A DNA stretch of 49,307 nt from a virus. The notes beneath the pieces are model-generated. The model searched no databases and was not told the origin of the DNA. It was given only the letters and a program-made list of their open reading frames with translations. The stretch lies in IMG/VR virus record IMGVR_UViG_3300034012_003312, positions 1-49,307 of that record; one strand, 5' to 3'. Below are positions 960-49,307 of this stretch, in pieces. Position 1 is the stretch's first letter. Each line of letters starts with the position of its first letter. Made by a program: the position numbers and the translations under genes.

Positions 960-1295
960 ATGGCCCTCACCTGCAACGTCCCCGGCCGGACGGCGACCAT
1001 CGCCGCGTCGGCCACCATCAACACCCTCCCGCTGGATCACGCTGCCCGCTGGCGGCTGACGATCAAGAACACCCACGGGTCGCAGACCCTGACCGCGTGC
1101 CGCGTGCGCCGCCGCACGCACCGCGCGGGGCCGTGGTCGGAGTGGGTCTCCGTGTCGTCGGGGCTCCCCGTCGCCGCGGGCGCCACGCTGACGATCGTGC
1201 CCGACGCCGACGACTGCGCGGAGGATCTCGACGTCGAGCTCACCGCCAGCGGCGCTGGGACGACGGTGGAGTTCTGGCTGGCAGGTGCGCAGTGA
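960..1295 (+). CDS. Small beta-rich virion or appendage protein
   Basis: 111 residues, with AGGAG six bases before the ATG. It is Thr/Ala-rich with alternating hydrophobic strands and no signal peptide or membrane helix, which fits a small beta-sandwich structural protein. It overlaps the next gene by four bases (GTGA). The gene in the equivalent place of the right-hand cassette (45430-45855) also encodes a small beta-rich protein, but the two are not clearly homologous. It is probably a tail appendage or decoration component. Function is not recognised. Confidence 0.7.
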   Translation: MALTCNVPGRTATIAASATINTLPLDHAARWRLTIKNTHGSQTLTACRVRRRTHRAGPWSEWVSVSSGLPVAAGATLTIVPDADDCAEDLDVELTASGAGTTVEFWLAGAQ

Positions 1296-2050
1296 GCGGC
1301 GGTCTGATCGTCAACGACGCGCCGACGAGCGGCTCTGTCACCGCCGAACAGGTGTGGGAGGGCCTCGGCGATGCGCTCGAAGCCGAGCCGACGCGCGGGC
1401 CTGAGCTCGCGGCGACGCTCGCCCGTCAGGTGGTCGACCCGCTCACGGGCGGCGGGTGGACCGTGGCCACGCTTTCGGGCACCGCAACGGCCGCGTGGTC
1501 GACGGGTCCCGCGCGGCTCTCGCTGAGCATTCCCGCGACCACCGACGGCGCGTGCCACGCCTATCAGGCCGGGCTGGTGCCGGACGGCGACGAGTGGGAC
1601 GCGCTCTGCCGCGTGCAGATCACCGCGGGCGACGGCGCGGCCAACACCCGCCTGATCCTCCAGGTGGGCACCAGCGCAGACGACCTGTACGCCCTCGCCC
1701 TCTACGCCGACGGGACCATGGAGCCCGGACGCACGGTCGCGACCGTGTACACCAGCGCGGGGACGGCCTCCGGGCCTTCGTCGGGACAGCGCACTGGCGG
1801 GCAGCTCTGGCTGCGCTTGTCGCGCCGCACGACGGGAATCGCGGCCTATTGGGGCGTCGGGTCGGCGGGTGCTGTGCCGACGTCGTGGACGCTCGTCGTG
1901 CCGCCTGAGACCGGCGTCGCCGCCATCGGCGCGGCGCAGGGAACGTACTTCCGAATCGTGCACACGGCCTTCGGCGGCGGCGTCGCCGGCGGCTTCGGGG
2001 CGTCGGTGCTGGCGATCCGGCTGCGCGGCCTCGCGGGCGTGGAGCTGTGA
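1292..2050 (+). CDS. Lectin-like (LamG/ConA-type) tail appendage protein, left paralogue
   Basis: 252 residues, GTG start overlapping the upstream TGA. After a 45-residue N-terminal segment comes VVDPLTGGGWTV and a beta-sandwich-like domain with the signatures DEWDALCRVQITAGDG, NTRLIL, ALYADGTMEPGR, TGGQLWLRL and YWGVGSAG. The same signatures occur in order in the product of 45857-46600, so the two are diverged paralogues (roughly 40% identical by eye). The pattern of a measured quantity, then 'GGQLWLRL', resembles concanavalin/LamG carbohydrate-binding folds. It may bind host surface glycans as part of the tail tip. The match to a named family is inferred, not searched. Confidence 0.7.
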   Translation: MSGGLIVNDAPTSGSVTAEQVWEGLGDALEAEPTRGPELAATLARQVVDPLTGGGWTVATLSGTATAAWSTGPARLSLSIPATTDGACHAYQAGLVPDGDEWDALCRVQITAGDGAANTRLILQVGTSADDLYALALYADGTMEPGRTVATVYTSAGTASGPSSGQRTGGQLWLRLSRRTTGIAAYWGVGSAGAVPTSWTLVVPPETGVAAIGAAQGTYFRIVHTAFGGGVAGGFGASVLAIRLRGLAGVEL

Positions 2051-2433
2051 TGCTCGCGCTCCTCGCCCAGGCCGCGCCCGGCGTCACGCTCACGCCCGGC
2101 CTCCTCGCGCTCGGCGGGCTGCTGGTCGCGGCGCTCTCCGCGCTGCTCGCGGGCGGCGTCGCCTGGGGTCGCTTCGACGCGGCCCTCACGCAGATCCGCA
2201 GCGACCACGCCGAGCTGCGCGCCGACGTGAAGCGCGCGGCCGAGTCAGGCGCTCAGATCGCCGTCCTGCAGCAGGCCGTCGCCGACCTCCGCGCCCGCGT
2301 CGAGCTGCTGGGTACCCGCTCGCATCAGGCCGCGAGCGAGGCCACGCGCCTTGCCACGCTCCTCGACGCGCTCACCTCTCGCGTCGGCGAGATCTCCGAC
2401 GACGTGCGGCACTCCTCACACCCTCGCTCTTGA
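2047..2433 (+). CDS. Holin-like membrane protein with coiled-coil tail
   Basis: 128 residues. GTG at 2047 overlaps the upstream stop; an in-frame ATG at 2050 is equally possible. Residues about 15-42 form one long hydrophobic helix (LLALGGLLVAALSALLAGG). The rest is a predicted cytoplasmic or periplasmic coiled coil (AALTQIRSDHAELRADVK, then LQQAVADLRARVELL). One transmembrane helix plus a coiled coil at the head of a lysis cassette resembles haemolysin XhlA-type or LLH-type holins. The equivalent slot in the right-hand cassette holds the receiver-domain membrane protein at 46597. Holin function rests on topology and position. Confidence 0.6.
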   Translation: MMLALLAQAAPGVTLTPGLLALGGLLVAALSALLAGGVAWGRFDAALTQIRSDHAELRADVKRAAESGAQIAVLQQAVADLRARVELLGTRSHQAASEATRLATLLDALTSRVGEISDDVRHSSHPRS

Positions 2434-2440
2434 GGCACCC

Positions 2441-2932
2441 ATGAAGCTCCTCGACCTCCTCACCGATCCCGTCCGCCTCCCCCTCGCGCTCGCGCTCCTC
2501 GCGGCCGTGGCTCGCGTGCTGTACGCCATCGTCTCCCACGTCGTCGCGCCCTACCCCCGCGCCCGCGCCGCGGTGGAGGCCGTCGTCGCGCTCCTCCCCG
2601 ACGTGCTGCGGTCGGGGCTCCAGCTCGTCGCCGTGGTGACGGGGCGCCCCGCGCCGCGGCTGGACGTGGTGCCTGTCGATCCCGATGTGGCGCGCGCGCA
2701 GCGTATCGGCGACGCAAGCCACGCCGCGGCGGTCGACGCCATAGAGAACGGGCGCCAGTGGCGCGATCGGGCCCTCGCAGCGGAAGCGCGCGTCGCCGAA
2801 CTCACCGCGTCGCCCGACGGCGGCCTGCGCCCGACGGTGGTACCCGGCGAGGAGCCGGAGCGGTCGCCCGACGAGACCACGGCCGCGGCCCAGCCGATCA
2901 CCTCGCGGCACCGCATTCGAGGTGCGCTGTGA
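2441..2932 (+). CDS. Membrane-anchored protein, possible inner-membrane spanin (Rz-like) or second holin
   Basis: 163 residues, TGAGG five bases before the ATG. Residues about 12-33 are hydrophobic (LPLALALLAAVARVLYAIV), with a further amphipathic hydrophobic stretch at 43-67. The second half is a charged helix (RIGDASHAAAVDAIENGRQW, AAEARVAEL) and a Pro/Thr-rich tail. The next gene, overlapping by GTGA, encodes a small lipoprotein. This inner-membrane helix protein plus overlapping lipoprotein arrangement is that of a two-component Rz/Rz1 spanin. The assignment is contextual; no Rz sequence signature is visible. Confidence 0.5.
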   Translation: MKLLDLLTDPVRLPLALALLAAVARVLYAIVSHVVAPYPRARAAVEAVVALLPDVLRSGLQLVAVVTGRPAPRLDVVPVDPDVARAQRIGDASHAAAVDAIENGRQWRDRALAAEARVAELTASPDGGLRPTVVPGEEPERSPDETTAAAQPITSRHRIRGAL

Positions 2933-3144
2933 TCCGCGCGCTCTGCCTCTCCCTGACGCTCACCCTCACCGGGTGCGGCACGGGCGCGTCCGCGCTCCCG
3001 ATCGCGCTGAAGGCCCTCGCGGGCGTCGCCGCGCTTGCCGAAGAGATGAGCCGCCCGCGCTGCGAGGACGCCCCGCACGCCCCCTCCTCGTCGCCCGACG
3101 GGGGCGCCGCGGCCGATGCGGCGGAGGCTGGCCATGGGGGCTGA
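2929..3144 (+). CDS. Small lipoprotein, possible outer-membrane spanin (Rz1-like)
   Basis: 71 residues, GTG start overlapping the upstream TGA. The N-terminus ALCLSLTLTLTGC is a lipoprotein signal with the lipobox Cys at 16. The mature part is short, Ala/Pro-rich and contains one further Cys. Size, lipobox and overlap with a membrane-anchored helix protein fit an o-spanin that would link outer and inner membranes at the last step of lysis. The right-hand cassette also has a small lipoprotein in this region (47397-47615), with no sequence similarity beyond the signal. Confidence 0.55.
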   Translation: MIRALCLSLTLTLTGCGTGASALPIALKALAGVAALAEEMSRPRCEDAPHAPSSSPDGGAAADAAEAGHGG

Positions 3145-4027
3145 CCATCCCATCGAATGGGCGCGCGACAAGCGCCGCCGCCTGGAGAAGTACGCCGAGG
3201 GCGACCTGGGCGTGTGGAGCGCGAGGGCCCGCGACGTGTGCCTCCCCGGGCTCCCGCTCGCCGTGCTGCTCGGGTTCGCGGCGAACGGCAACAGCATGAA
3301 CACCACCGGGTGGTTGCGCGGCGACGAGAGCGAGCGCGCCGAGTCCATCCGCAAGGGCAAGCGGCCGTTCGCAGGCGACCCGCACCGGGGCTACGGCGCC
3401 ATCGGGTCCAAGGACCTGCACGAGCTCGGGGAGTACGGCATCGAGGGCGGCCACGAGGGGACGCCCTGCGCGACCGACCCTGAGTGCGCGTGGGTCGTCG
3501 GGGCGAAGTCCGACGATGTGGCTAAGATCCTCGGCCGGTCCGGCGTCACGGGTGAGCGCTGGTACAAGGCCACCGAGGACAACGCCGCGATCGGGTGCTG
3601 GAACCTCCGCCGACACATGCGCAACGCGCGGGTGAAGCTCGAAGAGGTCGACCCGCGCCTGTCGTGGGTGCCCTCGCAGAAGCCCGTCACGCTCTGGATG
3701 AGCCTGTGCGCGTCGGCTTCGTGGAGCGCCGGGAGCGGCGGCTTCACGCGGCACATCCGCAAGCACGCCGCCGAGCTCGCCGCGCTCCCCGAGGGGCCGC
3801 GCGTCGGCCGCTTCCTTCAGCTCGCCGCCGCCGAGGACGACCGGGGCAACCGCCACCGCCAGGACGAGTGGACGGCCCTGCGGTGGGCGCAGAAGCACGA
3901 GGCTGCGTGCTGGGTCGCTCCGCAGATCGAGGGCGAGGAGTGGGCGGTGGAGTGGCTGCGCGACGACGGGCTCAGCGACGCCGAGCGGGCCGCGGTCTAC
4001 GCCCGGCTGGTGGAGTTCTCGACGTGA
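3134..4027 (+). CDS. Putative lytic enzyme of unrecognised family
   Basis: 297 residues. GGAGG lies about six bases before ATG 3134. No signal peptide is apparent. Residues 40-110 contain LLGFAANGNSMNT, a GYGAIGS loop and GEYGIEGGHEG. This mix of Gly-rich loops and acidic residues is reminiscent of lysozyme-like folds, but no diagnostic catalytic motif is certain. The C-terminal third is rich in Trp and charged residues (EWTALRWAQKHEA, EEWAVEWLRDDG). It sits between the spanin-like pair and the transglycosylase-like gene, and overlaps the latter by GTGA. The right-hand cassette has a metalloprotease-like protein and an amidase in this slot, so a cell-wall enzyme is the reasonable guess. Confidence 0.5.
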   Translation: MGADHPIEWARDKRRRLEKYAEGDLGVWSARARDVCLPGLPLAVLLGFAANGNSMNTTGWLRGDESERAESIRKGKRPFAGDPHRGYGAIGSKDLHELGEYGIEGGHEGTPCATDPECAWVVGAKSDDVAKILGRSGVTGERWYKATEDNAAIGCWNLRRHMRNARVKLEEVDPRLSWVPSQKPVTLWMSLCASASWSAGSGGFTRHIRKHAAELAALPEGPRVGRFLQLAAAEDDRGNRHRQDEWTALRWAQKHEAACWVAPQIEGEEWAVEWLRDDGLSDAERAAVYARLVEFST

Positions 4028-4380
4028 TCCTCGCCGCCGTCCTCCGTCTCGCCCTCGGCCTGTCGCGCCTCCCTGACCAGGGGGCCGTCGACGCGATCGA
4101 GCGCCACGCCGTCGCGGCCCGCGTTCCCGTCTCCCTCGCCCTCGCGGTCTGCACGCTGGAGAGCGGGCTGGGCACCCGCGGGGCGATCCTCTGCGGCTGC
4201 TACGTGCGGCGAGCGGGGGTGCTGGACGTGAGCGTCGAGGGGCAGGCCCGGTGCGTCGCAGGGACCCTGCGCGCGGGGCTGCGCTCGTGCGGGAGCTGGG
4301 CGGCGTCGCTGCGCCGCTACCGCTACGGGCTCGCGGACCACGGATGCCCCCTCGCCGACCCGCGGGCGTACGTGCGGCGC
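4024..4380. repeat. Left copy of the imperfect direct repeat shared with 48951-49307
   Basis: The repeat spacing is 44,927 bases. Identity is about 90% over 4024-4266 and 100% over 4267-4380. It covers the transglycosylase-like gene and stops where the window stops, so the true extent of the second copy is unknown. Confidence 0.85.
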
Positions 4381-4425
4381 GTGCAGGGCTACGTGAGGGC
4401 GCAGGGCCGCGGCCTCGTGCTCTGA
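4024..4425 (+). CDS. Lysozyme/transglycosylase-like endolysin (complete copy)
   Basis: 133 residues, GTG start overlapping the upstream TGA. The segment VPVSLALAVCTLESGLGTRG carries a candidate catalytic Glu (residue 46) in the ES.LG setting typical of soluble lytic transglycosylase-like domains. A following Cys pair (LCGCY) and conserved aromatic residues complete a small lysozyme-like fold. The N-terminus is mildly hydrophobic. It is the last gene before the terminator at 4461-4488. A second copy starts at 48951 and is cut by the window end: 24 differences in the first 243 bases, nearly all silent, then none over 114 bases. Confidence 0.65.
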   Translation: MILAAVLRLALGLSRLPDQGAVDAIERHAVAARVPVSLALAVCTLESGLGTRGAILCGCYVRRAGVLDVSVEGQARCVAGTLRAGLRSCGSWAASLRRYRYGLADHGCPLADPRAYVRRVQGYVRAQGRGLVL

Positions 4426-6328: not shown

Positions 6329-6340
6329 CGAGGATCTCCT

Positions 6341-25955: not shown

Positions 25956-25978
25956 AGACAACGACGACGGAGGAAGCG

Positions 25979-26370: not shown

Positions 26371-26394
26371 CCGACGATTCGCCCGCGCAAACGC

Positions 26395-26424
26395 TTGACA
26401 CCGCTCGCGGAGCGTGCGGAGAAT
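26395..26424 (+). promoter_or_regulatory. Probable late promoter with internal dyad
   Basis: TTGACA (26395-26400), 18-bp spacer, GAGAAT (26419-26424). The spacer contains CGCTC-GCG-GAGCG (26402-26414), a dyad where a regulator could bind. It lies in a 124-bp gap and precedes the packaging, head, tail and lysis genes. Confidence 0.6.
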
Positions 26425-26494
26425 ATCGGCAGAATCGCGCCCCATACAGCGCCACAGGTGCGTCCAGCACCCGGCGCCACGGCGCGGCCACCTC

Positions 26495-26713: not shown

Positions 26714-27186
26714 GCGACGGCGCACCGCCCCCCGCCCCGCGGCGGAAGGTGATCCCCATCGAGCGCCTCGTCGAGGTGGAGAAGCGCCTCCTGCGCGTCG
26801 AGCACCCGCCGCAGATCGAGCGCGAGCTCTCGAAGCAGTGGGGCATTACGCGCAACGGGGTGCGGCGGTACATCTCGCTCGTGCGGAAGCGCCTCGTCGA
26901 GGCGTTCCAGGCGACGCCCCCCGAGGAGCACGCCCAGCGCGTCGAGGGGATGCTCCTCGAAGCCTACCGCGTCGCCCTCGAAGAACGCGACGCGAAGGCG
27001 ATGGTGGCCGTCGCGAAGACGCTGGCCGAGGTCACCGGGGTCAAGGCGCCCTCGAAGGTCGACATCACCAGTGGCGGTGCTCCCCTCGCGGCCGTGGTGC
27101 TCCTCCCTGCGCTCGACGATGACCCCACCGCCCACGGTGCTCTTCCGGCCGAACCCCGGCCCGCAGACACGCTTCCTCGCCAGTAG
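26710..27186 (+). CDS. Terminase small subunit (putative)
   Basis: 158 residues, GTG start overlapping the upstream TGA. An HTH at about residues 30-55 (IERELSKQWGITRNGVRRYI) is followed by a long helix that could oligomerise and an extended, Pro-rich C-terminus. Its size, HTH and 68-bp overlap with the large terminase gene fit a TerS that recognises phage DNA and feeds it to the motor. Confidence 0.7.
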   Translation: MSDGAPPPAPRRKVIPIERLVEVEKRLLRVEHPPQIERELSKQWGITRNGVRRYISLVRKRLVEAFQATPPEEHAQRVEGMLLEAYRVALEERDAKAMVAVAKTLAEVTGVKAPSKVDITSGGAPLAAVVLLPALDDDPTAHGALPAEPRPADTLPRQ

Positions 27187-28444
27187 GGCGCAGCGGGCGC
27201 TCTACGGCGGCGCGGCGTCGGGCGGCAAGAGCGCCGCCCTCATGGCCTGCGTGCTGCGCTGGGTCACCAACCCCCGGTACCGCGGGCTCTACCTCCGCCG
27301 CGAGGCAACGTACCTCGGCGACGCGGTGGACAAGACGCGGCGGCTCTACCCCGCGCTCGGCGGCGTCCTCGTCCAGAGCCCGCGCATCGAGTGGCGCTTC
27401 CCCTCCGGCGCAACGCTGTGGATGAACCACTGCGAGCGCGAGTCGGACATCTCCAACTACGACAGCTTCGAGTTCGGCGAGGTGCTCTTCGACGAGCTCA
27501 CGCACTTCACCGAGCGGCAGTACGACGGCATCTGCGCGCGCCTCCGCGGCACCGACCCGACGCTCCCCTACTGGTCGCGGGCGGCCACCAACCCGGGCAA
27601 CGCCGGGCACGAGTGGGTCAAGCGCCGCTGGGGCGCCTGGCTCGACCCGAAGCACGAGCGTCCCGCCGCGCCGGGCGAGACCCGCTGGCGCCTCCACGAT
27701 CGCGACGTCCCACCGGGCACCCCGCACGCGCTCTCCTACACCTTCATCCCCGCGCGCATCGGCGACAACCCCCACGTCTCGGACGCCTACCGCGCGCAAC
27801 TGGAGGCGCTCGATCCGGTGCGCCGGGCCCAGCTGCTCGATGGCGACTGGGAGGCGGCGTACGGCGAGGGGAAGCTCTTCCACCGCGACTGGTGGCAACA
27901 CCTCGACGCGGCGCCCGCGTGTGTGTCTCGCGTGCGGGCCTGGGACTTCGGCGCGACCACCGGCGGCGACGCCACCGCGGGCGTGCTGCTCGGCGACCGT
28001 GGCGCGGGTGCGATCCCCCGCTACGTCGTGCTCGACGCGGTGAGCCTCCGCGGCGCCCCTCACGAGGTGCGGGCGCTGGTGAAGGCCACGGCGGAGCGCG
28101 ACGGGCGCGACGTAGTGGTGGTGGTGCCCCAGGACCCGGGGCAGGCGGGCGTCGAGCAGGCCCAGAGCTACGTGCGCGACCTCGCGGGGTGGACCGTCCG
28201 CACGCGCCGCCCCACCGGCGACAAGATCACCCGAGCGGGACCCTTCAGCGCGCAGGCGGGCGCGCGCAACGCCGCCGTCCTGCGCGCCCCGTGGACGCAC
28301 AGCTTCGTCGGCGAGCTGCACGCCTTCCCCGACGGCTCCCACGACGACCAGGTGGACGCCGCGGCCGACGCCTTCGCCGAGCTCGCCGCCCCCGCCCCGA
28401 CCTACCCCGACGCCCCGCGCCCTCACCTCCGCCGCCGCTTCTGA
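27119..28444 (+). CDS. terL: Terminase large subunit
   Basis: 441 residues. The ATPase domain has Walker A GGAASGGKSAA (residues 30-40), Walker B GEVLFDELTHF and coupling motif AATNPGN. The nuclease domain has RAWDFGATTGGDATAG, VVVPQDPGQAG and DGSHDDQVDAAADAF, supplying the acidic metal ligands. This is a complete phage packaging motor of the terminase_6 type. The upstream overlap with the small subunit gene is typical. Confidence 0.93.
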   Translation: MTPPPTVLFRPNPGPQTRFLASRAQRALYGGAASGGKSAALMACVLRWVTNPRYRGLYLRREATYLGDAVDKTRRLYPALGGVLVQSPRIEWRFPSGATLWMNHCERESDISNYDSFEFGEVLFDELTHFTERQYDGICARLRGTDPTLPYWSRAATNPGNAGHEWVKRRWGAWLDPKHERPAAPGETRWRLHDRDVPPGTPHALSYTFIPARIGDNPHVSDAYRAQLEALDPVRRAQLLDGDWEAAYGEGKLFHRDWWQHLDAAPACVSRVRAWDFGATTGGDATAGVLLGDRGAGAIPRYVVLDAVSLRGAPHEVRALVKATAERDGRDVVVVVPQDPGQAGVEQAQSYVRDLAGWTVRTRRPTGDKITRAGPFSAQAGARNAAVLRAPWTHSFVGELHAFPDGSHDDQVDAAADAFAELAAPAPTYPDAPRPHLRRRF

Positions 28445-28452
28445 CCGCCCGC

Positions 28453-30162
28453 GTGCCCCTCTACGACGACATCGCCCGCGCCCTCCGCGCCGGGGCCTCC
28501 GCCGTCCGCGGCGCATGGAAAGCGCCCGCACAGGCCGCGGCGCCCGCGCCCTCGAACGGTGCGCCGCCCCACGGCGCGCGCCGCCTGCGTCAGGTGCCGT
28601 CGCTCTCGGAATGGGACGCCGAGGACGTGCTCGCCGCCCTCCGCGCGCACGTCGCCGGGGAGTTCCGTGCCTCGGCCCAGCTCGCTGACCACCTCGGCCA
28701 GTGCGACGCGGTCGCGGGCGTCCTCGACACCCTCCGCCGCACCGTCGTCGGGCTGCCGTTCGACCTCGCCCCGCCCCTCGACACGCCTGACCCCGGCCGC
28801 TCCACCCGCCTCGCCACGGAGCTGCGCCGCGCATGGCCGCGGATGCTCTCCCGCGGCGCCGCCGCCGAGATCGTCAAGTGGTCGGCGCTCATGGGCTTCG
28901 CGATCGCGGAGCGCGTGTGGCGCCTCGACCCGGTCACGGGGCGCTGGTCGTGTCGGCTGAAGCCGTGGCACCCGGTGTTCACGCGCTGGGATTGGACGCG
29001 CGGCTGCTTCGCGGTGCAGACCGAGACGGGCACCGAATACGTCACGCCCGACTCGCAGAAGTGGTGCCTGTTCACGGACATCGAGGAGTCGCGGCCGTGG
29101 ATGAGCGGCGCCGTGCGCCCCCTCGGCATCCTCACGCTCATCGCGTGGTGGCTCGACCGCGACGGCGCCCGCTGGTCGGAGCGCCACGGCCTCCCGCCCC
29201 TCGGCGCCAAGGTGCCGATGAGCCAGTCGGAAGGCCCGCGCGTCGACCGCTTCCTCTCGGACCTGGAGGACCTCGGGACGGAGCCGATCATGCGGCTCCC
29301 CCAGGGCGAGCAGGGCGCCGCGAGCTTCGACATCGAATGGAAGGAGCTCAAGAACGCCACCGCGTGGCAGGGGTTCCTGGAGCCCGGCCGCGACATCCGC
29401 TCCCGCGTCGCGATCGTCCTCGTCGGCCAGCCGCTCACCTCCCAGGCGGGCGTCGGGGGCTCCGGCTCCTACGCTCTCGGCAAGGTGCACAGCGGCGTGC
29501 ACCAGCAGGTGGTGGAGTCCTACGCGCACCTGCTCGGGACCGCCCGCGCGCACCTGGTGGTGCCGTGGGTGCGGGTCAACGAGACCGGGTCGCGGCGCGA
29601 CGCCGAGCTCATCGCCCCGGCGCCGACCTGGGACGCGGCGCCGCCGGCGGACGCCAAGGCCGACGCGGAGTCGAGCGAGGCCAGGGCCCGCGCGGTGAAG
29701 GCGTGGCAGGAGACGGGCGTCCCCGTCGACGCACTCGCGGAGGCGAAGGCGGATGGCGTCATCGTCCTGACCAACACGCAGCCGAAGACCTCCGTGCCGA
29801 CCGGCGAGGTACGCGCGCTCCCCGAGCGCTACGACGGCATCGACCTGCGCCCCTCCCAGGGCATGGCCGACGCGGCGCGGCGCGGGATCGAGCTGCACGA
29901 AGAGGGCCTCTCCGGGGACGGACTGAAGCCCGAGACCGTGAAGCGTGCGCACCAGATCGCCGCGCGCGACGACCTCACCCCGGAGCACTGGCGCGAGATG
30001 CGCGGGTGGTTCGCCCGCCACGCGAGCGACCGCACGCCCGAATGGGACTCCCCGCCGACGCCCGGCTACGTGGCCTGGATGCTCTGGGGCGGCGACCCCG
30101 GCGAGAGCCGTAGCCGCGCGGTGGTCGCGCGCCTGGATCGCGCCGACGAAGAGGACGCATGA
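28453..30162 (+). CDS. Portal protein, Mu gp29-like (DUF935), with C-terminal extra domain
   Basis: 569 residues from GTG 28453. Portal features include EIVKWSALMGFAIAERVWRL, WWLDRDGARWSERHGLPPLG, KNATAWQGFLEPGRDIRSRV and IVLVGQPLTSQAGVGGSGSY, as in Mu gp29/DUF935 portals. The last ~115 residues (from DGIDLRPSQGMADAARRGIE to GYVAWMLWGGDPGESRSRAV) form a separate helical domain. I associate its closing signature (G.AW.LWGGD.G) with other phage head proteins. The portal forms the ring through which DNA enters the head. Confidence 0.85.
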   Translation: MPLYDDIARALRAGASAVRGAWKAPAQAAAPAPSNGAPPHGARRLRQVPSLSEWDAEDVLAALRAHVAGEFRASAQLADHLGQCDAVAGVLDTLRRTVVGLPFDLAPPLDTPDPGRSTRLATELRRAWPRMLSRGAAAEIVKWSALMGFAIAERVWRLDPVTGRWSCRLKPWHPVFTRWDWTRGCFAVQTETGTEYVTPDSQKWCLFTDIEESRPWMSGAVRPLGILTLIAWWLDRDGARWSERHGLPPLGAKVPMSQSEGPRVDRFLSDLEDLGTEPIMRLPQGEQGAASFDIEWKELKNATAWQGFLEPGRDIRSRVAIVLVGQPLTSQAGVGGSGSYALGKVHSGVHQQVVESYAHLLGTARAHLVVPWVRVNETGSRRDAELIAPAPTWDAAPPADAKADAESSEARARAVKAWQETGVPVDALAEAKADGVIVLTNTQPKTSVPTGEVRALPERYDGIDLRPSQGMADAARRGIELHEEGLSGDGLKPETVKRAHQIAARDDLTPEHWREMRGWFARHASDRTPEWDSPPTPGYVAWMLWGGDPGESRSRAVVARLDRADEEDA

Positions 30163-30410
30163 GCCGCAAGAACACCACCCGCGCCGACGCCCCGCGCCTC
30201 GGCGCCGCCGTCCTCTGGCGCGTGCCCGACGAGTGGCGCGCGCACGACGTCGCGGAGCGCCTCGGCCCCGAGGTGCCCGCCATCGTCGCCCGCGTGCACA
30301 CAGACGGAGCCGTCGACCTGCACCCGCTCCCGCCGCTCGGCGCCCCGCCGCTCCGCGTGGAGCTGACGTGGCGTGTCCCGCCCTCCGCGTGGCGCCCCTT
30401 CGAGGACTGA
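30159..30410 (+). CDS. Small hypothetical head-region protein
   Basis: 83 residues, ATG overlapping the portal stop. It is beta-rich (GAAVLWRVPDEWRAHDVAER, IVARVHTDGAVDLHPLPPLG). It lies between portal and protease, where small head accessory proteins are common. No family is recognised. Confidence 0.6.
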   Translation: MSRKNTTRADAPRLGAAVLWRVPDEWRAHDVAERLGPEVPAIVARVHTDGAVDLHPLPPLGAPPLRVELTWRVPPSAWRPFED

Positions 30411-30414
30411 CCCC

Positions 30415-31635
30415 ATGACCGACCTGCACACCCGCGCGCTGGTGCTCACCCGCGCGCCCGGCGAGGCCTTCGACCCCGCGACGCGCACCATCCCGGTGGT
30501 CGCGTCCACCGAGGCGATCGACTCCTACGACGAGGTCATCGACCAGGCGTCGTGGAGGCTCGACCGCTTCCAGCGGGCGCCCCTCGCGCTCTGGCAACAC
30601 TGCGCGTGGGAGGAGCCCATCGGCTTCTACCGCAACGTGCGCGTCGAGGGCGGCGCCCTGCGCGCGGACCTCGTGCTCTACGAGGGCGCCGCCGACCCCG
30701 AGGGCCGGGCCGAGCGCGTGCTGCAGCGGTACGCGCAGGGCGGCCCCGTGAGCGTGTCGGTGGGCTTCGCGCTCGGCCGCAGCGAGAAGGAAGACCGCGG
30801 AGGCCGCAGCGTCCGCGTGCTCTACGACAACGAGCTTCACGAGATCAGCGTCGTCACCGTCGGGGCCAACCCTGACGCCGTCGCGCTGCGAGCAAGGGCG
30901 GCCCTGCGCCGCGCGAGGAGAGGGATGATGACGTTCGAAGAGTACCTGAAGGAGCGCGGGATGACGCCCGCGCAGGCCGCCGCCGCGTGCGGCATGACCG
31001 AAGACCAGCTCACCGCCCTCGTCGGCGGCACCGCGCCGACCGCCGAACAGGTGACGATGCTCGCCACCGGCCTCGGGCTCTCCGAGGAGGAGGTCGCCGC
31101 GATGTTCCCGGCGCCCGCCGCCGAGGCGGACGACGAGGAGGGCGGCGAGGGCGACCCCGCGGTCGTGATCGTCGAGGAGGCCGCCAAGGCCCGCGCCGAG
31201 CTCACCGAGCTGCGCGCGCTCCTCGGCGTGAAGGATCACGGCGCCGCCCGCGCCCGCATCAAGGCGCTCCTGCACCTCGCGGAGACCTCGCGGAAGACGG
31301 CCGACGAGCGGGCCGCGGCCTCGCGACGCCGCGACGAGCTCGAGGTCGCCGAGCTCCTGCGCGCTGCCCGCGTGGACGGCCGCGTCACGGGCGCCAACGA
31401 GGCGAAGGTCGCCGAGCACCTGAAGGGCGCCGCGCCCTCGGCGGTGCGGGCCTACCTCGACACGCTGGTGCCGCTCGTCGACCCGACCGAGCGCCGCGAG
31501 CCCGCGGACGGCTCCGTCGCCGTGTCGAAGGCCGCCGCGGAGATCGGCGCCCGCGTGGGCTTCACGCCCGAGAAGCTGGCGGCCGCCGCCGCCGAGAACG
31601 AGCGCCGCCGCGCGCAGCGCACCCCCGCCCGCTGA
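30415..31635 (+). CDS. HK97-type prohead protease fused to an HTH-like segment and scaffold
   Basis: 406 residues. Residues 1-170 match the U35 prohead protease fold: STEAIDSYDEVIDQASW, catalytic His62 in LALWQHCAWEEPIG, and the Ser region GGPVSVSVGFALG (113/115), then HEISVVTVGANPDA. Residues about 175-235 look like a helix-turn-helix (YLKERGMTPAQAAAACGMTE, VTMLATGLGLSEEEVAAMF). The remainder is acidic then coiled-coil and helical, as in scaffolds. The protein would guide capsid assembly and then cleave itself. A three-part fusion with an HTH-like insert is unusual. Confidence 0.85.
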   Translation: MTDLHTRALVLTRAPGEAFDPATRTIPVVASTEAIDSYDEVIDQASWRLDRFQRAPLALWQHCAWEEPIGFYRNVRVEGGALRADLVLYEGAADPEGRAERVLQRYAQGGPVSVSVGFALGRSEKEDRGGRSVRVLYDNELHEISVVTVGANPDAVALRARAALRRARRGMMTFEEYLKERGMTPAQAAAACGMTEDQLTALVGGTAPTAEQVTMLATGLGLSEEEVAAMFPAPAAEADDEEGGEGDPAVVIVEEAAKARAELTELRALLGVKDHGAARARIKALLHLAETSRKTADERAAASRRRDELEVAELLRAARVDGRVTGANEAKVAEHLKGAAPSAVRAYLDTLVPLVDPTERREPADGSVAVSKAAAEIGARVGFTPEKLAAAAAENERRRAQRTPAR

Positions 31636-31662
31636 CCCACCACACGAAGGAACCCACAGACC

Positions 31663-32538
31663 ATGACCGCACTCGCCGCCGATTTCCCCCGGCCGTCGTC
31701 GCCCGAGGCGACCACGCGCCGCCTCTCCGTCCCCGTCGCCGCCTCGACCACGATCTACCAGGGCGCGCTCGTCGCCACGCAGATCGGCGGCTCGGGCTAC
31801 GCGACCAACGCCACCGCGGACAACACGTACCGCGTGCTGGGCGTGGCCGCGGAGAACGCCACCAACACCACCGCCGCGGGCTACGGCGCCGCCGGCGACA
31901 TCAGCGTCAACGTCGACCGCGGCGTCTTCCCCTTCACGAACTCGTCGAGCACCGACGCGCTCACCGCCGCCGACGTGGGCGAGCTCTGCTACGTGGTCGA
32001 CAACGACACCGTGGCGCGCACCTCGAACGGCGGCCTGCGCCCCGTCGCGGGCTACGTGAGCCGCATCGAGAACGGCATGGTGTTCGTCGAGATCGGCGCC
32101 AGCGTGTCGAACGCCATGGGCCACATCGACCTGCTCTTCCCCGCGGCCGCCGACTACTCCACCACGGGCCAGAACCGCGCGATGGCGCTCAACGGCAGCT
32201 CCAAGTGGGTGCTGGTCGTCGCCGCCGGCGCCAAGGCCCAGGGCATCCTCCTCAACGCCCCGGTGGCCGACGCCATCGCCATCGTGCGCGTCTTCGGCCC
32301 CGTGCAGGCCCTCGCGGGCGACACGATCGCCGACGGCGCCTACTGCGCGGTGGAGGTCACCAACGGCCGCATGAAGACCGCCGTCGCGGCCACCGTCGCC
32401 GGCGGCTCGGGCGACCCCACCAACGACGCCGTGGTCGGCTCGCACGTGCTCGGCTTCGCCCTCTCGGACGGCACGACGGGCGCGATCTTCCGCATGTTCG
32501 TCAACCCGATGGGGGCGATCCCCACCACCGCGGCCTGA
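31663..32538 (+). CDS. Capsid decoration or head fibre-like protein
   Basis: 291 residues, GAAGGA before the ATG. It is an Ala/Gly/Thr/Val-rich beta protein without Cys clusters. The first 120 residues (VPVAASTTIYQGALVATQIG, RVLGVAAENATNTT) resemble DUF2190-type decoration domains, while the second half (IAIVRVFGPVQALAGDTIAD) is a similar repeat. Lying between protease and capsid genes, it probably coats or stabilises the head. Confidence 0.65.
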   Translation: MTALAADFPRPSSPEATTRRLSVPVAASTTIYQGALVATQIGGSGYATNATADNTYRVLGVAAENATNTTAAGYGAAGDISVNVDRGVFPFTNSSSTDALTAADVGELCYVVDNDTVARTSNGGLRPVAGYVSRIENGMVFVEIGASVSNAMGHIDLLFPAAADYSTTGQNRAMALNGSSKWVLVVAAGAKAQGILLNAPVADAIAIVRVFGPVQALAGDTIADGAYCAVEVTNGRMKTAVAATVAGGSGDPTNDAVVGSHVLGFALSDGTTGAIFRMFVNPMGAIPTTAA

Positions 32539-32574
32539 CCGCGCGCACCGCACACCCCACAGGAGAAACAGACC

Positions 32575-33516
32575 ATGCCCGGAATCGCCCAGTACGGCCC
32601 GGCGCTCGACGCGCTCTACCAGAACTTCAACGCCGCCTTCCAGGAGGGCCTCGTCGACCTGCTCGACGAGTACGGCCGCCCCTGGTGGTCCCAGGTCGCG
32701 ACGGAGATGCCGTCGGACACCGACGAGGAGGTGCACGCCTGGATCCAGCAGATCCCGACGGTGCGCGAGTGGCTCGGGGACCGCGTCCTCAACGCGCTCT
32801 CGGAGAGCTCGTACCGCCTCAAGAACCGCACCTTCGAGAACACCGTGCAGGTGTCGAAGGACCGCGTCGCCGACCGCAAGATCGGCGTCGAGGCCCCGCT
32901 GATGCGCATGCTCGGCTACCAGTTCGCGAAGTTCCCCGACCGCACCATCGCGACGGAGCTGCTCATCGGCTACGCCGCGCGCAAGTGCTACGACGGCAAG
33001 GCGTTCTTCGCCGACGACCACCCGGTCAACGTGCTCGACGCGGGCAAGGGCACCTTCGACAACCTCCGCGCGAGCACGGCCCTCACCGCCGCCAACTTCG
33101 ACACGATCTTCGCGGCCATGGCGGGGTTCAAGAACGCCGACGGGGAGGTCCTCGGGATCGTCCCGGACACCCTGATCGTGCCGCCCCAGCTCCGCACGAC
33201 GGCGCACCTGATCGCGCACGCCGCGTTCGTCCCCTCGAGCGCAGGCACCGCGACGCAGAGCAACCCCAACGAGGGCGTGGTCGGCGTGCTCGTGCTCCCC
33301 GAGCTCGCGAGCGAGAGCACCACCTGGTACCTCGGCAAGCTCAAGGGCCCGCTGAAGCCCCTCCTGCGCCAGGTGCGCGAGGCGCCGGTGTTCGACCTCG
33401 TGTTCGGCCCCGACTCCGACCACTGCAAGAAGACCCGCCAGCTCGCCTGGGGCGCCGACTGCCGTGAGGCCTTCGGCTACACGCTCCCGCAGCTGATGGT
33501 CCGCTGCACCGCCTGA
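32575..33516 (+). CDS. Major capsid protein, Mu gpT-like
   Basis: 313 residues, AGGAG before the ATG. The order of features matches Mu gpT: WWSQVATEMPSDTDEEV, IPTVREWLGDRVLNALS, YRLKNRTFENTVQVSKDRV, then FFADDHPV, TLIVPPQLRTTAHLI and WYLGKLKGPLKPLLRQ. Length is that of gpT-class capsids. It forms the icosahedral shell with the protease/scaffold upstream. Confidence 0.88.
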   Translation: MPGIAQYGPALDALYQNFNAAFQEGLVDLLDEYGRPWWSQVATEMPSDTDEEVHAWIQQIPTVREWLGDRVLNALSESSYRLKNRTFENTVQVSKDRVADRKIGVEAPLMRMLGYQFAKFPDRTIATELLIGYAARKCYDGKAFFADDHPVNVLDAGKGTFDNLRASTALTAANFDTIFAAMAGFKNADGEVLGIVPDTLIVPPQLRTTAHLIAHAAFVPSSAGTATQSNPNEGVVGVLVLPELASESTTWYLGKLKGPLKPLLRQVREAPVFDLVFGPDSDHCKKTRQLAWGADCREAFGYTLPQLMVRCTA

Positions 33517-42806: not shown

Positions 42807-43079
42807 TCAGAGGCAGCGGCCGTCGAGACAGGCCAGGCCGGCGGCGCACGAGAGGCCGCACCCGCCGCAGTTGCGCTCGTCGCGCGTGGTCTCGCAGGTG
42901 CCGTTGCCGTCGCAGTCGAGCTGCAGCGCGCCGCACCGCAGCGTCACGCCCGGAGGCAGCTCCGACGCGGCGTCCGCGCTGGCGTCGTTCGCGCCTCCCC
43001 CGTCGACCGTCCCTGGCCCGGGTCCCGGGTCCGCACCGCACGCCATGCACAAGAGCCCAATGAGCAGCAACGTCCGCAT
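42807..43079 (-). CDS. Cys-rich myxobacterial-type lipoprotein, second allele
   Basis: 90 residues. MRTLLLIGLLCMAC is a lipoprotein signal with the lipobox Cys at 14 and Gly at +2. A Gly/Ala/Asp linker is followed by LDCDGNGTCETTRDERNCGGCG and LSCAAGLACLDGRC. It is the short counterpart of the protein at 363-857, with the same signal start (MRT), same Cys motif and same position relative to a tail gene. Opposite orientation to the late operon suggests independent expression in the lysogen. It could alter the host surface; this is inference. Confidence 0.78.
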   Translation of the reverse strand: MRTLLLIGLLCMACGADPGPGPGTVDGGGANDASADAASELPPGVTLRCGALQLDCDGNGTCETTRDERNCGGCGLSCAAGLACLDGRCL

Positions 43080-43125: not shown

Positions 43126-43530
43126 TCACCCGCCGGCGACGGCGCGGTTGAGCGCGGTGGCGATCGCCCCGGCCCGGGCCTTGTCGGGGGAGGTGAACAC
43201 GTCCGCCTGCCCGGCGGCGGTCATCACACGGACAACGTACCGGGGCTTTGCGCTGAGCGCCGCGAGGACGGCCACCGCGAGGCCGCCCCCGGCTCCCACG
43301 GCGGCGAGGGTGAGCCCGCCGCCGAAGATCGCTCCGAGCAGTCCAAGGGCGATCCCGCCGAGCAGCACCTTTGCCGCATCGGTGTAGTCAGCGGGCACCT
43401 CGATGTACTGCATCGCGGTGAGTCCGCGGATCGGGTACACGGTTCCGTTCACCACGAAGCGCGCGGTGGTGACGAGGACGTTGGCGTCCTGGTGGATGAG
43501 CTGCTCGGCGTGGGGCTGCGGTGGGTACAT
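43126..43530 (-). CDS. DUF6232-like membrane protein
   Basis: 134 residues. The N-terminal segment (ANVLVTTARFVVNGTVYPIR, GLTAMQYIEVP) matches the DUF6232 pattern of a small beta domain. It is followed by a hydrophobic hairpin at about 55-92 (AKVLLGGIALGLLGAIFGGG, LTLAAVGAGGGLAVAVLAAL). The C-terminal strand-helix is KPRYVVRVMTAAGQADVFTS. It lies behind the lipoprotein on the same strand, 46 bp apart, forming a two-gene moron. The 104 bp upstream, shared with a plus-strand tail gene, may hold its promoter, but no clear -35/-10 is visible. Confidence 0.65.
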   Translation of the reverse strand: MYPPQPHAEQLIHQDANVLVTTARFVVNGTVYPIRGLTAMQYIEVPADYTDAAKVLLGGIALGLLGAIFGGGLTLAAVGAGGGLAVAVLAALSAKPRYVVRVMTAAGQADVFTSPDKARAGAIATALNRAVAGG

Positions 43531-45429: not shown

Positions 45430-45855
45430 ATGTCCGCCATGATCCACAAGGGCCCGCTGACCGCCCTCTTCACCGCGCAGACCCTCACGGGCTCGCTGGT
45501 CGCGTCGACCGCGGAGTGCGACGTCTCGCTCGCCTCCTACTGCGACCTGACGGTCGACTACACGCAGGGCACCGGGGGCACCTCCCCGAAGCTCGAGCTC
45601 ACGGTCGAGCAGAAGCACGAGGGCTCGTCGACGTGGCGCCAGGTGGCCACGCTCGACGCGGGGACGGTCGCCGCCGGCGCGGTGCCGCTGGCGCTCACGA
45701 CGCCCACGTACACGCTCGCGGCGTCGGCGTCGTTGGTCTTCTCGGTGCCGTGCTTCGGCGCGGGGAAGCTCCGGGTGAAGGTGCGCGAGACGGGGTCGCC
45801 GTCGCCCTTCGGCAGCGTGACCGTCGCGGCGATCCCGTCGCGGGTGGGAGGCTGA
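45430..45855 (+). CDS. Small beta-rich appendage protein
   Basis: 141 residues. It has a beta-sandwich-like alternation throughout (YCDLTVDYTQGTGGTSPKLE, WRQVATLDAGTVAAGAVPLA, KLRVKVRETGSPSPFGSVTV). It occupies the position of the 960-1295 gene relative to the lectin-like paralogue. It is probably a tail decoration or adsorption module. No family is recognised. Confidence 0.65.
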   Translation: MSAMIHKGPLTALFTAQTLTGSLVASTAECDVSLASYCDLTVDYTQGTGGTSPKLELTVEQKHEGSSTWRQVATLDAGTVAAGAVPLALTTPTYTLAASASLVFSVPCFGAGKLRVKVRETGSPSPFGSVTVAAIPSRVGG

Positions 45856-45856: not shown

Positions 45857-46600
45857 ATGGGGATCATCCTCTCTGGTCCGACGGTGCTCCTGCCGTCCGC
45901 GGGCAGCGTCACGGCCGCGTCGATGGCCGCCGCCGTCGCCGCCGCGGACGACGCCGCGGACGTGAGCGCCGCGCTCGCCGCGCCCGTGGTCGATCCGTTG
46001 ACCGGCGCAGGGTGGACGGCCGGAACGCCCTCGGGTGGCGCGGCGGCGACGTGGACGAGCGGGACGCGCTTGCGCGTCGCGGTCCCCACCGGGGTCGAGG
46101 GCGCGGCGTGGGTGCAGCGCGACGACCTTCTCCCTGACGGCCCCGAGTGGGACTTCTACACGCGCGTGGACATCGTCGCGGGCGACACCGCGGGCAACAC
46201 CCGCATCATCCTCGGCGCGGGGGTCGACGAGAACAACTTCATCAGCGCCGCGCTGTGGGCAGACGGCACGCTGGAAATCGGCCGGGTGCTCGCGGGGTCG
46301 TACGGCGGCAGCGCGTACGGCGCCGCGCCGGGCCTCGACTCGGCGGCCCGCACGGGCGGACAGCTCTGGCTGCGGCTCGCGCTGCGGCTCGGCGAGGTGA
46401 CCATCTCGTGGGGCGTCGGCGCTGCCGGCGTGCCGCCGAAGGGGTGGCGGGTCGAGCAGCGCCTCACGAGCGCGGACGCACTCGCGGTGGCGGGCGGCCG
46501 GTGGGGGCGCCTTTACGTCACCGCCATCTCGGGCGGCGTGGTCGGCGGGCTGACGGTGGACTTCCTCGCGATTCGCACGCGCGCGTCGGTGCCGCTGTGA
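45857..46600 (+). CDS. Lectin-like (LamG/ConA-type) tail appendage protein, right paralogue
   Basis: 247 residues. It shares in order VVDPLTGAGWTAGTPSG, EWDFYTRVDIVAGDTAGNTR, ALWADGTLEIGRVLAG, TGGQLWLRLALRLGEVTISW and SGGVVGGLTVDFLAIRTR with the left protein at 1292-2050. The central domain looks like a laminin-G or concanavalin fold used for glycan binding. The sequence difference between the paralogues fits a change of receptor. GTGA links it to the receiver-domain gene. Confidence 0.7.
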   Translation: MGIILSGPTVLLPSAGSVTAASMAAAVAAADDAADVSAALAAPVVDPLTGAGWTAGTPSGGAAATWTSGTRLRVAVPTGVEGAAWVQRDDLLPDGPEWDFYTRVDIVAGDTAGNTRIILGAGVDENNFISAALWADGTLEIGRVLAGSYGGSAYGAAPGLDSAARTGGQLWLRLALRLGEVTISWGVGAAGVPPKGWRVEQRLTSADALAVAGGRWGRLYVTAISGGVVGGLTVDFLAIRTRASVPL

Positions 46601-47397
46601 CCGCCGTCCTCGTCGTCGACGACCACCCCTCGGCGCTCGCGGGCCTCGCCTACGCCCTGCGCGAGCGGTGGGAGGTGCTCGTCGCCGCCACCGTGGCCGA
46701 AGCCCTCGCCGTCCTCGCGCGCCTCACCCCCGCCGCGGTGGTGCTCGACCTCCTGCTCGACGCTGACGCCTCGCCCCTGCACCGCGAGCTCGTGATGCGG
46801 GGCGTCCCTGTCGTCGCCGTCTCGGGCATCGAGGCGAGCGCCGCCGAGTCGATCGCCCGCGTGTGGGGCTGGCGCTACGTCGCCAAGCCGCCCGGCGACG
46901 ACACCCTCACCGCGGCCGTGGCCGCAGCACTGGAGACCGCACCCATGCCCGACGACTCCCCGCGCCTGACGATGACGCCCCCCGCGCCCGCACCCGACGC
47001 GCCGCTCCCTGCGCCGCCCGCCGCGCCCGACGGCGACAGCGTCTCTCCGCTCGCCGCCACGCACCCGCAGGTGGCCGTCGCCGAGGCGTGGTCGCGCACC
47101 ATCCGCCGCTCCATCGCGACGATCGCCGTCACCGGCCTCGCGCTCTACTTCGAATCGCGCGGCCACGTCGTGCCGCTGCCCATCGTCGCCGCCCTTACGG
47201 TGCTCGGCATCGGCGTGAGCGGCGCCCTCGCAGCGCTGCGCAAGCGCCCCGCGGTGGCCGCTGGCGGCGCGGGCGCGCTCGCGGTCGTCGCCCTCGGCGG
47301 GTCGCTGCTCGACGAGGGCGGCGCGAGCCTCGTCGCGACCCTCGGGGCGGGCGCGATCCCCCTGGTCGACCTCCTGGCCGATCGGGTGCGCTCGTGA
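46597..47397 (+). CDS. Response-regulator receiver domain fused to a holin-like membrane domain
   Basis: 266 residues, GTG overlapping the upstream TGA. Residues 1-113 form a complete receiver domain: AVLVVDDHPSALAGLAYAL with Asp8/Asp9, phospho-acceptor Asp51 in AAVVLDLLLD, Ser76 in VVAVSG and Lys97 in YVAKPPG. A Pro/Ala linker (about 115-155) leads to 3-4 hydrophobic helices at about 169-185, 191-214, 219-238 and 243-261. The gene lies exactly where the left cassette has its holin-like gene and is followed by a lipoprotein, a metalloprotease-like protein, an amidase and the transglycosylase. All residues needed for phosphorylation are present. A lysis protein gated by a host histidine kinase is the inference. 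Confidence 0.8.
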   Translation: MTAVLVVDDHPSALAGLAYALRERWEVLVAATVAEALAVLARLTPAAVVLDLLLDADASPLHRELVMRGVPVVAVSGIEASAAESIARVWGWRYVAKPPGDDTLTAAVAAALETAPMPDDSPRLTMTPPAPAPDAPLPAPPAAPDGDSVSPLAATHPQVAVAEAWSRTIRRSIATIAVTGLALYFESRGHVVPLPIVAALTVLGIGVSGALAALRKRPAVAAGGAGALAVVALGGSLLDEGGASLVATLGAGAIPLVDLLADRVRS

Positions 47398-47615
47398 TGC
47401 GCGCGCTCGTCGTGCTCGTCGCGGCGGCCCTCGTCGCGTGCCCCAAGCTCCCGCCCGTCTCGGGCTGCGAACCGCTCTCCCAGCGCTGCGAGGGGGACCG
47501 CCCCCAGGTGTGCTCGCCGTCGCGCCGCTGGCACTTCGTGGGCGACGAGGCCTGCGGCGTCTCGCCGGGGCAGTCGTGCCAGGTGCGCGCTGGCGTCGCG
47601 GGGTGCGCGCGATGA
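47397..47615 (+). CDS. Small Cys-rich lipoprotein
   Basis: 72 residues; ATG 47397 overlaps the upstream stop, with GTG 47394 as alternative. MRALVVLVAAALVAC is a signal peptide with the lipobox Cys at 15. The mature part has six more Cys (SGCEPLSQRCEG, PQVCSPSRRW, EACGVSPGQSCQ, GCAR), probably disulfide bonded in the periplasm. It may be the outer-membrane spanin of this cassette, or a surface protein. It overlaps the next gene by ATGA. Confidence 0.6.
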   Translation: MRALVVLVAAALVACPKLPPVSGCEPLSQRCEGDRPQVCSPSRRWHFVGDEACGVSPGQSCQVRAGVAGCAR

Positions 47616-48268
47616 TCACCTTCGACACCGCCCGCGCGCTCGCCGCGCACCTCGCCGCCACCCGCCGCGCCGTGATCGTCGACCCCGACGACGCGCGCCC
47701 CTGGCTCGCCACGCTCGAGGGCGCGGTGTCGCTCCTTCCCGGCGCGGCCCCCGTGCTCACCACCGTTCGCGGCCTCGTCTCGGGCGCCGCGGAGAGCGTC
47801 GCGGGCCTCGCGGTCCCGTCGCCCTGGGGAACGGCGATCCTCCTCACGCCGCGGGCCATGGTCGACCCCGCCGCCTACGTCGCGACGGTCACGCACGAGC
47901 TCGTTCACGCGTCGCAGGTGGTGGCCCTCGGCGCTGGCCAGACCGCGGCGGACTACCTGCACCCGGAGCTCCGCGCCCTGCGCGAGGCCGAGGCGGGCGG
48001 CGTCGGCCTCTGGGTGCGCTACCTCGTGACCGGCGTGCGCCCGTCGCCCGACGAGGCCGGGGTGGTGCGGTCGGCGCTCTACCACCTCGACGCCAGCGAC
48101 CGCGCCTTCGGGCGTGCCGTCGTCGAGAGCATCCTGGCGCCCATCGAGCTCGGCGCGGTGCCCCCTCACAGCGTCGCCCGTGAGGCGCTGGCATGGCTGC
48201 ACGAGCACGCGCCCGACGCGATCGCGGCCGGGGCGTACGCCGACCGGGCGACGGCGGTCCCGCAGTGA
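47612..48268 (+). CDS. HEXXH metalloprotease-like protein in the lysis cassette
   Basis: 218 residues, ATG overlapping the upstream TGA. VATVTHELVHASQVV holds a zincin motif (His95, Glu96, His99). A downstream Glu in LREAEAGGVGLWVRYL could be the third ligand. No signal peptide is visible. Residues 55-82 are hydrophobic. It is flanked by a lipoprotein and an amidase, so it may cleave cell-wall peptides or a membrane protein during lysis. It could instead be a bound, catalytically relaxed structural protein. The left cassette has no homologue. Confidence 0.6.
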   Translation: MITFDTARALAAHLAATRRAVIVDPDDARPWLATLEGAVSLLPGAAPVLTTVRGLVSGAAESVAGLAVPSPWGTAILLTPRAMVDPAAYVATVTHELVHASQVVALGAGQTAADYLHPELRALREAEAGGVGLWVRYLVTGVRPSPDEAGVVRSALYHLDASDRAFGRAVVESILAPIELGAVPPHSVAREALAWLHEHAPDAIAAGAYADRATAVPQ

Positions 48269-48954
48269 CCGGCCTCGTCATCGGCGGGGCGCGCGTCGCC
48301 GTCCCGGGCGCCGAGGTCGTGACGTGGCTCGACGATCCCAGCCGCGCGCCACCCGTGACCGACGGCAAGCGCCGCGACCCGGCGAAGGTGCTGGCGATCT
48401 GCCTGCACACCAGCCGCGGCCAGCGGGGGGCGAAGCTCCGGCCGGGCGCCCGTCCCTCGACGCGCGCGGAGACGCTGGCGCGCTACCAGAGCACCACCGC
48501 GCGGGAGGTGTCCTGGCACCTCACGATCGACAGCGACGGGACGGTGATCCAGAGCGCCGACCTCGGGTCGTGGATGTGCTGGCACGCTGGACACGTCAAC
48601 GGCTGGACCGTGGGCATCGAGCTCGTCCAGCACCCCGACTCGCCCGACCTCTGGCAGGTTCAGCTCGACGCGCTCGTCGCGGTCTGCGCGGCGACGTCCG
48701 ACACGCTGAATATCCCGCGGCGCGTCATGGTCGACGGCGCCGACGCGCCGCTCACGGTGCCCATCGGCCCGCTGCTCTCCGAGGCCGCGCGCTCGCGCGA
48801 CGGGCGGCCCCTCGGCGGCAAGGGCGAGCGGTGGCCCGGGGTCATCGGTCACTGCCAGGTGGTGCCCGACCACGTCCGCGGCCCGGGCGACCCCGGTGAC
48901 TTGCCCTTCCGCGCGCTGCTGGCGGCGGGCTGGCAGGGAGCGCCGCGGCCGTGA
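48265..48954 (+). CDS. N-acetylmuramoyl-L-alanine amidase (Amidase_2/AmpD fold)
   Basis: 229 residues, GTG overlapping the upstream TGA. AmpD-type zinc ligands are His48 (AICLHTSRG), His196 (VIGHCQVV) and Asp209 (GPGDPGD). VSWHLTIDSDGTVIQ, WHAGHVNGWTVGIELVQ and Glu119 complete the pattern of the fold. It would cut the amide bond between muramic acid and the peptide stem. It is the main endolysin of the right-hand cassette and overlaps the second transglycosylase-like gene by GTGA. Confidence 0.88.
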   Translation: MTGLVIGGARVAVPGAEVVTWLDDPSRAPPVTDGKRRDPAKVLAICLHTSRGQRGAKLRPGARPSTRAETLARYQSTTAREVSWHLTIDSDGTVIQSADLGSWMCWHAGHVNGWTVGIELVQHPDSPDLWQVQLDALVAVCAATSDTLNIPRRVMVDGADAPLTVPIGPLLSEAARSRDGRPLGGKGERWPGVIGHCQVVPDHVRGPGDPGDLPFRALLAAGWQGAPRP

Positions 48955-49307
48955 TCCTCGCCGCTGTCCTCCGTCTCGCCCTCGGCCTGTCGCGTCTCCC
49001 TGACCAGGGGGCCGTTGATGCCATCGAGCGCCACGCCGTCGCGGCCCGCGTCCCGGTCTCCCTGGCGCTGGCCGTGTGCACGCTGGAGAGCGGCCTCGGC
49101 ACCCGCGGGGCGATCCTCTGCGGGTGCTACGTGCGCCGGGCGGGGGCGCTGGACACCAGCGTCGAGGGGCAGGCCCGCTGCGTCGCCGGGACGCTGCGCG
49201 CGGGGCTGCGCTCGTGCGGGAGCTGGGCGGCGTCGCTGCGCCGCTACCGCTACGGGCTCGCGGACCACGGATGCCCCCTCGCCGACCCGCGGGCGTACGT
49301 GCGGCGC
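48951..49307 (+). CDS. Lysozyme/transglycosylase-like endolysin, second copy truncated by window end
   Basis: 119 residues visible, GTG overlapping the amidase stop. The product matches that of 4024-4425 except VLDVS versus ALDTS, with Glu46 in CTLESGLG retained. Over the first 243 bases there are 24 differences, 20 of them silent. The last 114 bases (49194-49307) are identical to 4267-4380. The window ends in mid gene, 14 codons before the stop expected from the left copy. Confidence 0.65.
   Translation, partial: MILAAVLRLALGLSRLPDQGAVDAIERHAVAARVPVSLALAVCTLESGLGTRGAILCGCYVRRAGALDTSVEGQARCVAGTLRAGLRSCGSWAASLRRYRYGLADHGCPLADPRAYVRR
48951..49307. repeat. Right copy of the imperfect direct repeat shared with 4024-4380
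   Basis: It ends exactly at the window end. The last mismatch is at 49193 (G versus C at 4266). The sharp change from about 10% divergence to none marks either a recombination junction or the point where an assembly path rejoins sequence already used. Confidence 0.85.

Follow-up and report, generated by a model that had tools for sequence, protein, structure and literature searches.

What is a two-component receiver doing in a membrane protein encoded among the lysis genes of a phage? The question is raised by a gene in IMGVR_UViG_3300034012_003312, an uncultured virus record of 49,307 bases that was analysed at its full length (hereafter, the window). The record encodes a temperate phage whose head genes are Mu-like; its genes include a terminase, Portal_Mu, a Mu gpT capsid protein and a serine recombinase. 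A second record (L002, IMGVR_UViG_3300042518_001956) contains 10,489 bases 100% identical to window positions 23027-33515. The gene in question (46597..47397, + strand) encodes 266 residues arranged as a receiver, a Pro/Ala linker and a membrane domain. A preliminary description of this DNA had interpreted the product as a receiver-holin by which a host kinase could set lysis timing. That interpretation is partly supported by our analysis: the placement of the receiver in a lysis slot and its recurrence elsewhere are strengthened, and its functional part is what we infer.

The gene was confirmed as a coding unit at the position first described. Its reading frame opens with GTG at 46597, ends with the stop codon at 47395-47397 and comprises 266 codons with zero internal stops. 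Third-position GC, with the frame offset allowed for, is 0.95 in the receiver, 0.94 in the linker and 0.94 in the membrane part; since it is even throughout, the three parts form one coding frame. The two junctions proposed earlier were also found, a GTGA overlap with the upstream lectin-like gene (46597-46600) and a TGATG overlap with the downstream lipoprotein gene (47395-47399), which indicate that the gene is translationally coupled on both sides within a late operon. Such coupling argues against a cargo gene (moron) that has no role in lysis and is located there by chance. No relatives of the whole protein were detected, at the sensitivity available, when IMG/VR and GTDB genomes were scanned for peptide patterns and phages and plasmids were searched by tblastn, and the locus varies, as might be expected of cargo; but another fusion in this slot, with its parts in a different order (see below), is hard to reconcile with chance, and we consider this explanation very improbable.

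The receiver domain (46606..46920, +) was identified by a Pfam search, as the preliminary description had suggested. Response_reg (PF00072) matched residues 4-108 over profile positions 1-110 of 111 with an E-value of 8.9e-7; the protein-search score of 29.5 bits falls just under the cut-off of 30.2 bits, and a six-frame scan placed the same domain above it, at 31.7 bits. The receiver also matched phrog_731 in PHROGs (7.9e-7), and the only PDB sequence match of the protein was RegX3, a receiver. The profile covers the whole domain and all catalytic residues are kept (acid pair D8/D9, acceptor D51, S76, switch Y94 and K97), which bears out the complete receiver claimed at the outset. In receiver sequence and catalytic residues the protein resembles ordinary PF00072 response regulators such as RegX3, from which it differs in output, DNA-binding or enzymatic in those proteins and a membrane domain here. 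A structural model of the receiver fitted the (beta-alpha)5 order of strands and helices with low-to-moderate confidence (pLDDT 65.9, pTM 0.63), and its best Foldseek matches were mostly receivers, at a TM-score of only about 0.42. Prediction of the full-length 266-residue protein gave a pLDDT of 46, too low to be informative.

The loop following D51 is short, with no Pro/Gly where one is usual, and D51 could for that reason be phosphorylated weakly. Degenerate receivers that act independently of phosphorylation exist, and together with the shortened loop they raise the alternative that the domain is a structural module for dimerisation or assembly of a holin, its phosphorylation no longer mattering. 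We regard this as improbable, since the acceptor and catalytic residues are all kept both here and in the second fusion despite 36% identity between the two receivers. As to origin, the best receiver matches in six Myxococcota genomes are only 29-35% identical, which makes recent capture from a host receiver unlikely. The domain is the sole receiver in the window phage, and none was found in 40 viral records having a related terminase. Neither HATPase_c nor any histidine kinase was found in the phage record, which may be incomplete.

Behind the receiver, the Pro/Ala-rich linker (46945..47095, +) continues in the same frame and leads into the membrane part (47104..47376, +), delimited by hydropathy. 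The three to four membrane helices counted previously correspond to three clear helices (residues 191-213, 219-238 and 242-260) and a weak fourth at about 170-187 (KD 0.9). Basic residues occur where a cytoplasmic face would be expected (RTIRR ahead of helix 1, RKR behind helix 2), and the RKR loop fits a topology with N- and C-terminus both inside. The helix count is within the one-to-four range of holins; 266 residues is long for a holin, and the extra length is due to the receiver. No holin family in Pfam, PHROGs or NCBIfam matched the membrane part.

Two candidate relatives of the membrane half were rejected. A likeness to a membrane domain of three Myxococcota cassettes (L237/L241/L239), good by eye and by hhalign (E 5e-4, probability 32%), failed shuffled controls, 18/500 block shuffles and 6/500 full shuffles scoring as high. 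The membrane half alone gave only chance-level matches in 379 Myxococcota genomes, and the frame that holds the best of these (L162) does not appear to be coding.

The surroundings of the gene point to lysis. The right-hand cassette, entirely on the + strand, is ordered lectin-like gene (45857..46600), receiver-membrane gene, Cys-rich lipoprotein (47397..47615), HExxH protein (47612..48268) and Amidase_2 endolysin (48265..48954). It is preceded by a gene at 45430..45855 and followed by one at 48951..49307 that is truncated by the contig end. The lipoprotein is o-spanin-like, with the lipobox LVAC, and the HExxH protein is from a family without a Pfam name, whose members occur in both prophages and chromosomes of Myxococcota. 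The endolysin (E 6.9e-14), three genes downstream of the receiver gene, is the amidase with which the lysis block had been said to end; inspection by eye revealed no obvious signal peptide in it. The receiver-membrane protein is the only polytopic membrane protein of this cassette. Because an amidase without a visible signal needs an exit, and the receiver gene is the sole polytopic candidate to provide one, holin or holin regulator is the leading assignment, reached by position and exclusion. Our preferred reading, which we hold tentatively, is that the gene encodes a holin-type lysis effector of a temperate Myxococcota phage onto which a two-component receiver has been fused.

The left end of the contig carries a version of this locus without a receiver (960..4425, +). 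It consists of a gene at 960-1295, a lectin-like gene (1292-2050), two one-helix genes (2050-2433, a helix plus coiled coil, and 2441-2932), a lipoprotein gene (2929-3144), a gene for a 297-residue protein in the endolysin position (3134-4027, +) and a gene at 4024-4425 shared with 48951..49307. The 297-residue protein had no match in PHROGs or NCBIfam and is possibly a new hydrolase. The gene at 2050-2433 had been described as an ordinary one-helix holin-like gene; the single helix stands, accompanied by a coiled coil, but the gene may encode a spanin rather than a holin, and its syntenic counterpart in cassette L235 (5160-5591) weakly matches an Rz-like spanin family.

The two ends of the contig are closely related. 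Its last 358 bases (48950-49307) repeat 4023-4380 at 93% identity, a pair not recognised as a terminal repeat, and the shared gene is identical at 98% of amino acids and 93% of nucleotides, the 119 codons common to both copies carrying 20 synonymous and 2 amino-acid differences. The left and right lectin-like genes are 44-46% identical. Furthermore, the single cassette of L236 combines homologues of left gene 2441-2932 (E 1e-13), of right gene 45430..45855 (same position, 38%, E 4e-20) and of the right lipoprotein with an HExxH-family gene. Given the end repeat, the related lectin-like genes and this mixture of both gene sets in L236, the contig probably wraps round a circular genome of some 44.9 kb, so that one variable locus is covered twice, in two versions. 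What had been taken for a second, left cassette is thus probably another version of the same locus, although the two may instead be a true duplication. With wrap or duplication alike, the place of the receiver gene is taken in the left version by two one-helix membrane genes.

Used as queries against IMG/VR, the amidase, the HExxH gene, gene 4024-4425, the two lectin-like genes and alignments of the receiver yielded no useful matches. The HExxH protein did lead to a Myxococcota genome with a prophage-like region (E 4e-20), and further loci across one order were identified with a profile built on its family. Nine syntenic lysis-type cassettes were recognised (L189, L191, L230, L235, L236, L237, L239, L240 and L241). 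Most of the nine, where the contig extends far enough, share a usual gene set: one gene each of beta-rich and lectin-like type, one or two for small membrane proteins, one for a membrane-lipoprotein, an HExxH gene and a hydrolase-like gene. The downstream hydrolases were of PG_binding_1 or Peptidase_M15 type in the cassettes tested. Homology extends to several neighbours of the receiver gene and of its left counterpart: the HExxH gene matches that of L189 (E 2e-22), the right lipoprotein matches lipoprotein parts of L189 (E 6e-10), L236, L240 and L241, and 960-1295 matches genes in L191 (E 1e-17) and L240 (E 3e-15). This homology of neighbour genes supports a Myxococcota host, and agrees with the myxobacterial setting first proposed, the relatives in Myxococcota prophages matching at E 1e-13 to 1e-22.

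A receiver was absent from 8/9 of the syntenic cassettes and present only in L230. Counting the window, 2/10 HExxH-bearing cassettes carry one, so that the receiver is an optional addition. Two of the receiver-less cassettes, L191 and L236, resemble in layout the lysis cassette of F1-cluster mycobacteriophages, where LysF1a and LysF1b, small holin-like proteins of two helices and one helix, are encoded side by side (PMC13056207). Those phages infect other hosts, and their proteins have no receiver.

The L230 protein (5839-6417, 192 residues; genome G426, contig 79) occupies the same slot as the window receiver gene with its domains in reverse order: two short hydrophobic helices of moderate hydrophobicity (KD 1.2 and 1.6), a basic stretch, then an intact receiver. 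The latter exceeds the PF00072 cut-off (E 2.7e-7, 31.2 bits) and keeps ED, D128, S152 and K174. Its gene overlaps the preceding one by ATGA. Upstream, at a distance of a few genes, are Baseplate_J and Mu gp48 genes, themselves preceded by more phage genes. It is the sole receiver among 362 genes called in 24 loci, and no further receivers were found in the remaining stretch of G426 examined. The preliminary description was to be refuted by homologues found solely outside lysis contexts; the opposite was seen, a fusion in a syntenic lysis cassette. The chance of an unrelated receiver in the interval is about 1/67 genes for the window and 4/~55 for L230, or, as a rough figure, ~1 in 1,000 jointly. 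Since the domain order is reversed and the two receivers, 36% identical, are no closer to each other than each is to some host receivers, the proteins probably arose as separate fusions. The known fusions number two, that of the window coming from a single metagenomic contig. We also rejected a candidate relative, L179, in which a receiver is joined to a Lon-like protein and the receiver part alone matches.

The L230 cassette also contains a one-helix gene (5546-5842) and a TM-lipoprotein gene beside the fusion, so the fused protein there could act on another membrane protein. Under this alternative it would be an antiholin or holin partner that restrains a separate pore-former, with the receiver timing the end of restraint. 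There is precedent in phage T4, whose holin T is paired with the antiholins RI and RIII, which hold the sensing role (PMC9636201). In T4 as proposed here, lysis timing answers an outside signal via a soluble domain; the T4 antiholins, however, are separate proteins in periplasm and cytoplasm, and the window receiver is fused to the membrane protein. No second polytopic membrane protein that it might restrain was found in the right cassette, and we judge a restraining role rather unlikely.

How might a receiver act in a holin-type effector, our preferred reading? The receiver would lie in the cytoplasm, where D51 could be phosphorylated by a host histidine kinase, by a phosphotransfer protein or by acetyl phosphate; since the phage record has no kinase, the proposed phosphate source is host kinases or acetyl phosphate. 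Receiver phosphorylation usually alters dimerisation, a plausible gate for assembly of an oligomeric membrane protein. Phosphorylation would thus promote or restrain assembly of the membrane part, and the moment of endolysin release would depend on host signalling or metabolic state. It is possible, though we advance this with greater reserve, that Myxococcota phages have at least twice, in opposite domain orders, wired a receiver into a pore-former, giving a phosphorylation-gated holin with which host kinases or acetyl phosphate time lysis post-translationally.

The same orphan receiver, with all its residues kept and no kinase in the phage record, could also be a membrane-tethered decoy. Single receivers serve as phosphate sinks in host pathways, and a decoy would drain or compete for host kinase phosphate, remodelling host signalling (in development or envelope stress) late in infection, with no direct part in lysis. 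A sink requires no polytopic anchor, however, and both fusions are encoded within the late lysis block, by genes that overlap closely with those for structure and lysis. A decoy would also leave the right cassette without a recognisable holin, and we think it unlikely.

Lysis timing is usually ascribed to holin accumulation and antiholins. Should the holin-type reading be correct, host signalling would have a direct and fast route to burst time through a receiver carried by the membrane protein of lysis, in hosts rich in two-component kinases, and lysis may be linked to signalling of the host in some phages. The two fusions offer a natural comparison by their opposite domain orders, and the acceptor Asp is a simple mutational target. 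The open-licence literature searched contained no earlier report of a receiver-holin fusion. Among the nearest parallels is the LytSR and LrgAB-CidA system of Staphylococcus aureus, in which a receiver controls holin-type proteins and lysis (PMC4830213, PMC8805020) and acetyl phosphate charges LytR, the controller of the lrgAB operon (PMC4830213). Both systems link a receiver, chargeable by acetyl phosphate in the case of LytR, with holin-type proteins and lysis; LytR is a soluble transcription factor and its holin-like targets are separate, whereas in the window phage the receiver is within the membrane protein. In vibriophage VP882, too, the lysis decision passes through a host-type sensory domain, that of VqmA; this protein is a transcription factor for quorum sensing that acts before lysis and is not part of a lysis protein (PMC10426928).

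Finally, the searches outline a conserved, apparently unnamed lysis cassette of Myxococcota prophages. HExxH family members (window 47612-48268, L190 4621-5232, L223-L234 and L243-L261) occur in three settings: lysis cassettes of phages, phage head operons, where a Cys-rich lipoprotein gene lies beside them, and Myxococcota chromosomes. The weaker matches proved to be paralogues on host chromosomes, located close to gyrase- and DnaK-like genes and lacking receivers, and extending the search to the class level brought in only copies from head operons or from non-lysis contexts. In the nine cassettes a single frame often encodes both a membrane segment and a Cys-rich lipoprotein, possibly as fused or nested spanin genes. 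In the window, another Cys-rich lipoprotein gene (42807-43079) and a gene for a small membrane protein (43126-43530) lie between tail genes on the opposite (-) strand and are cargo-like.
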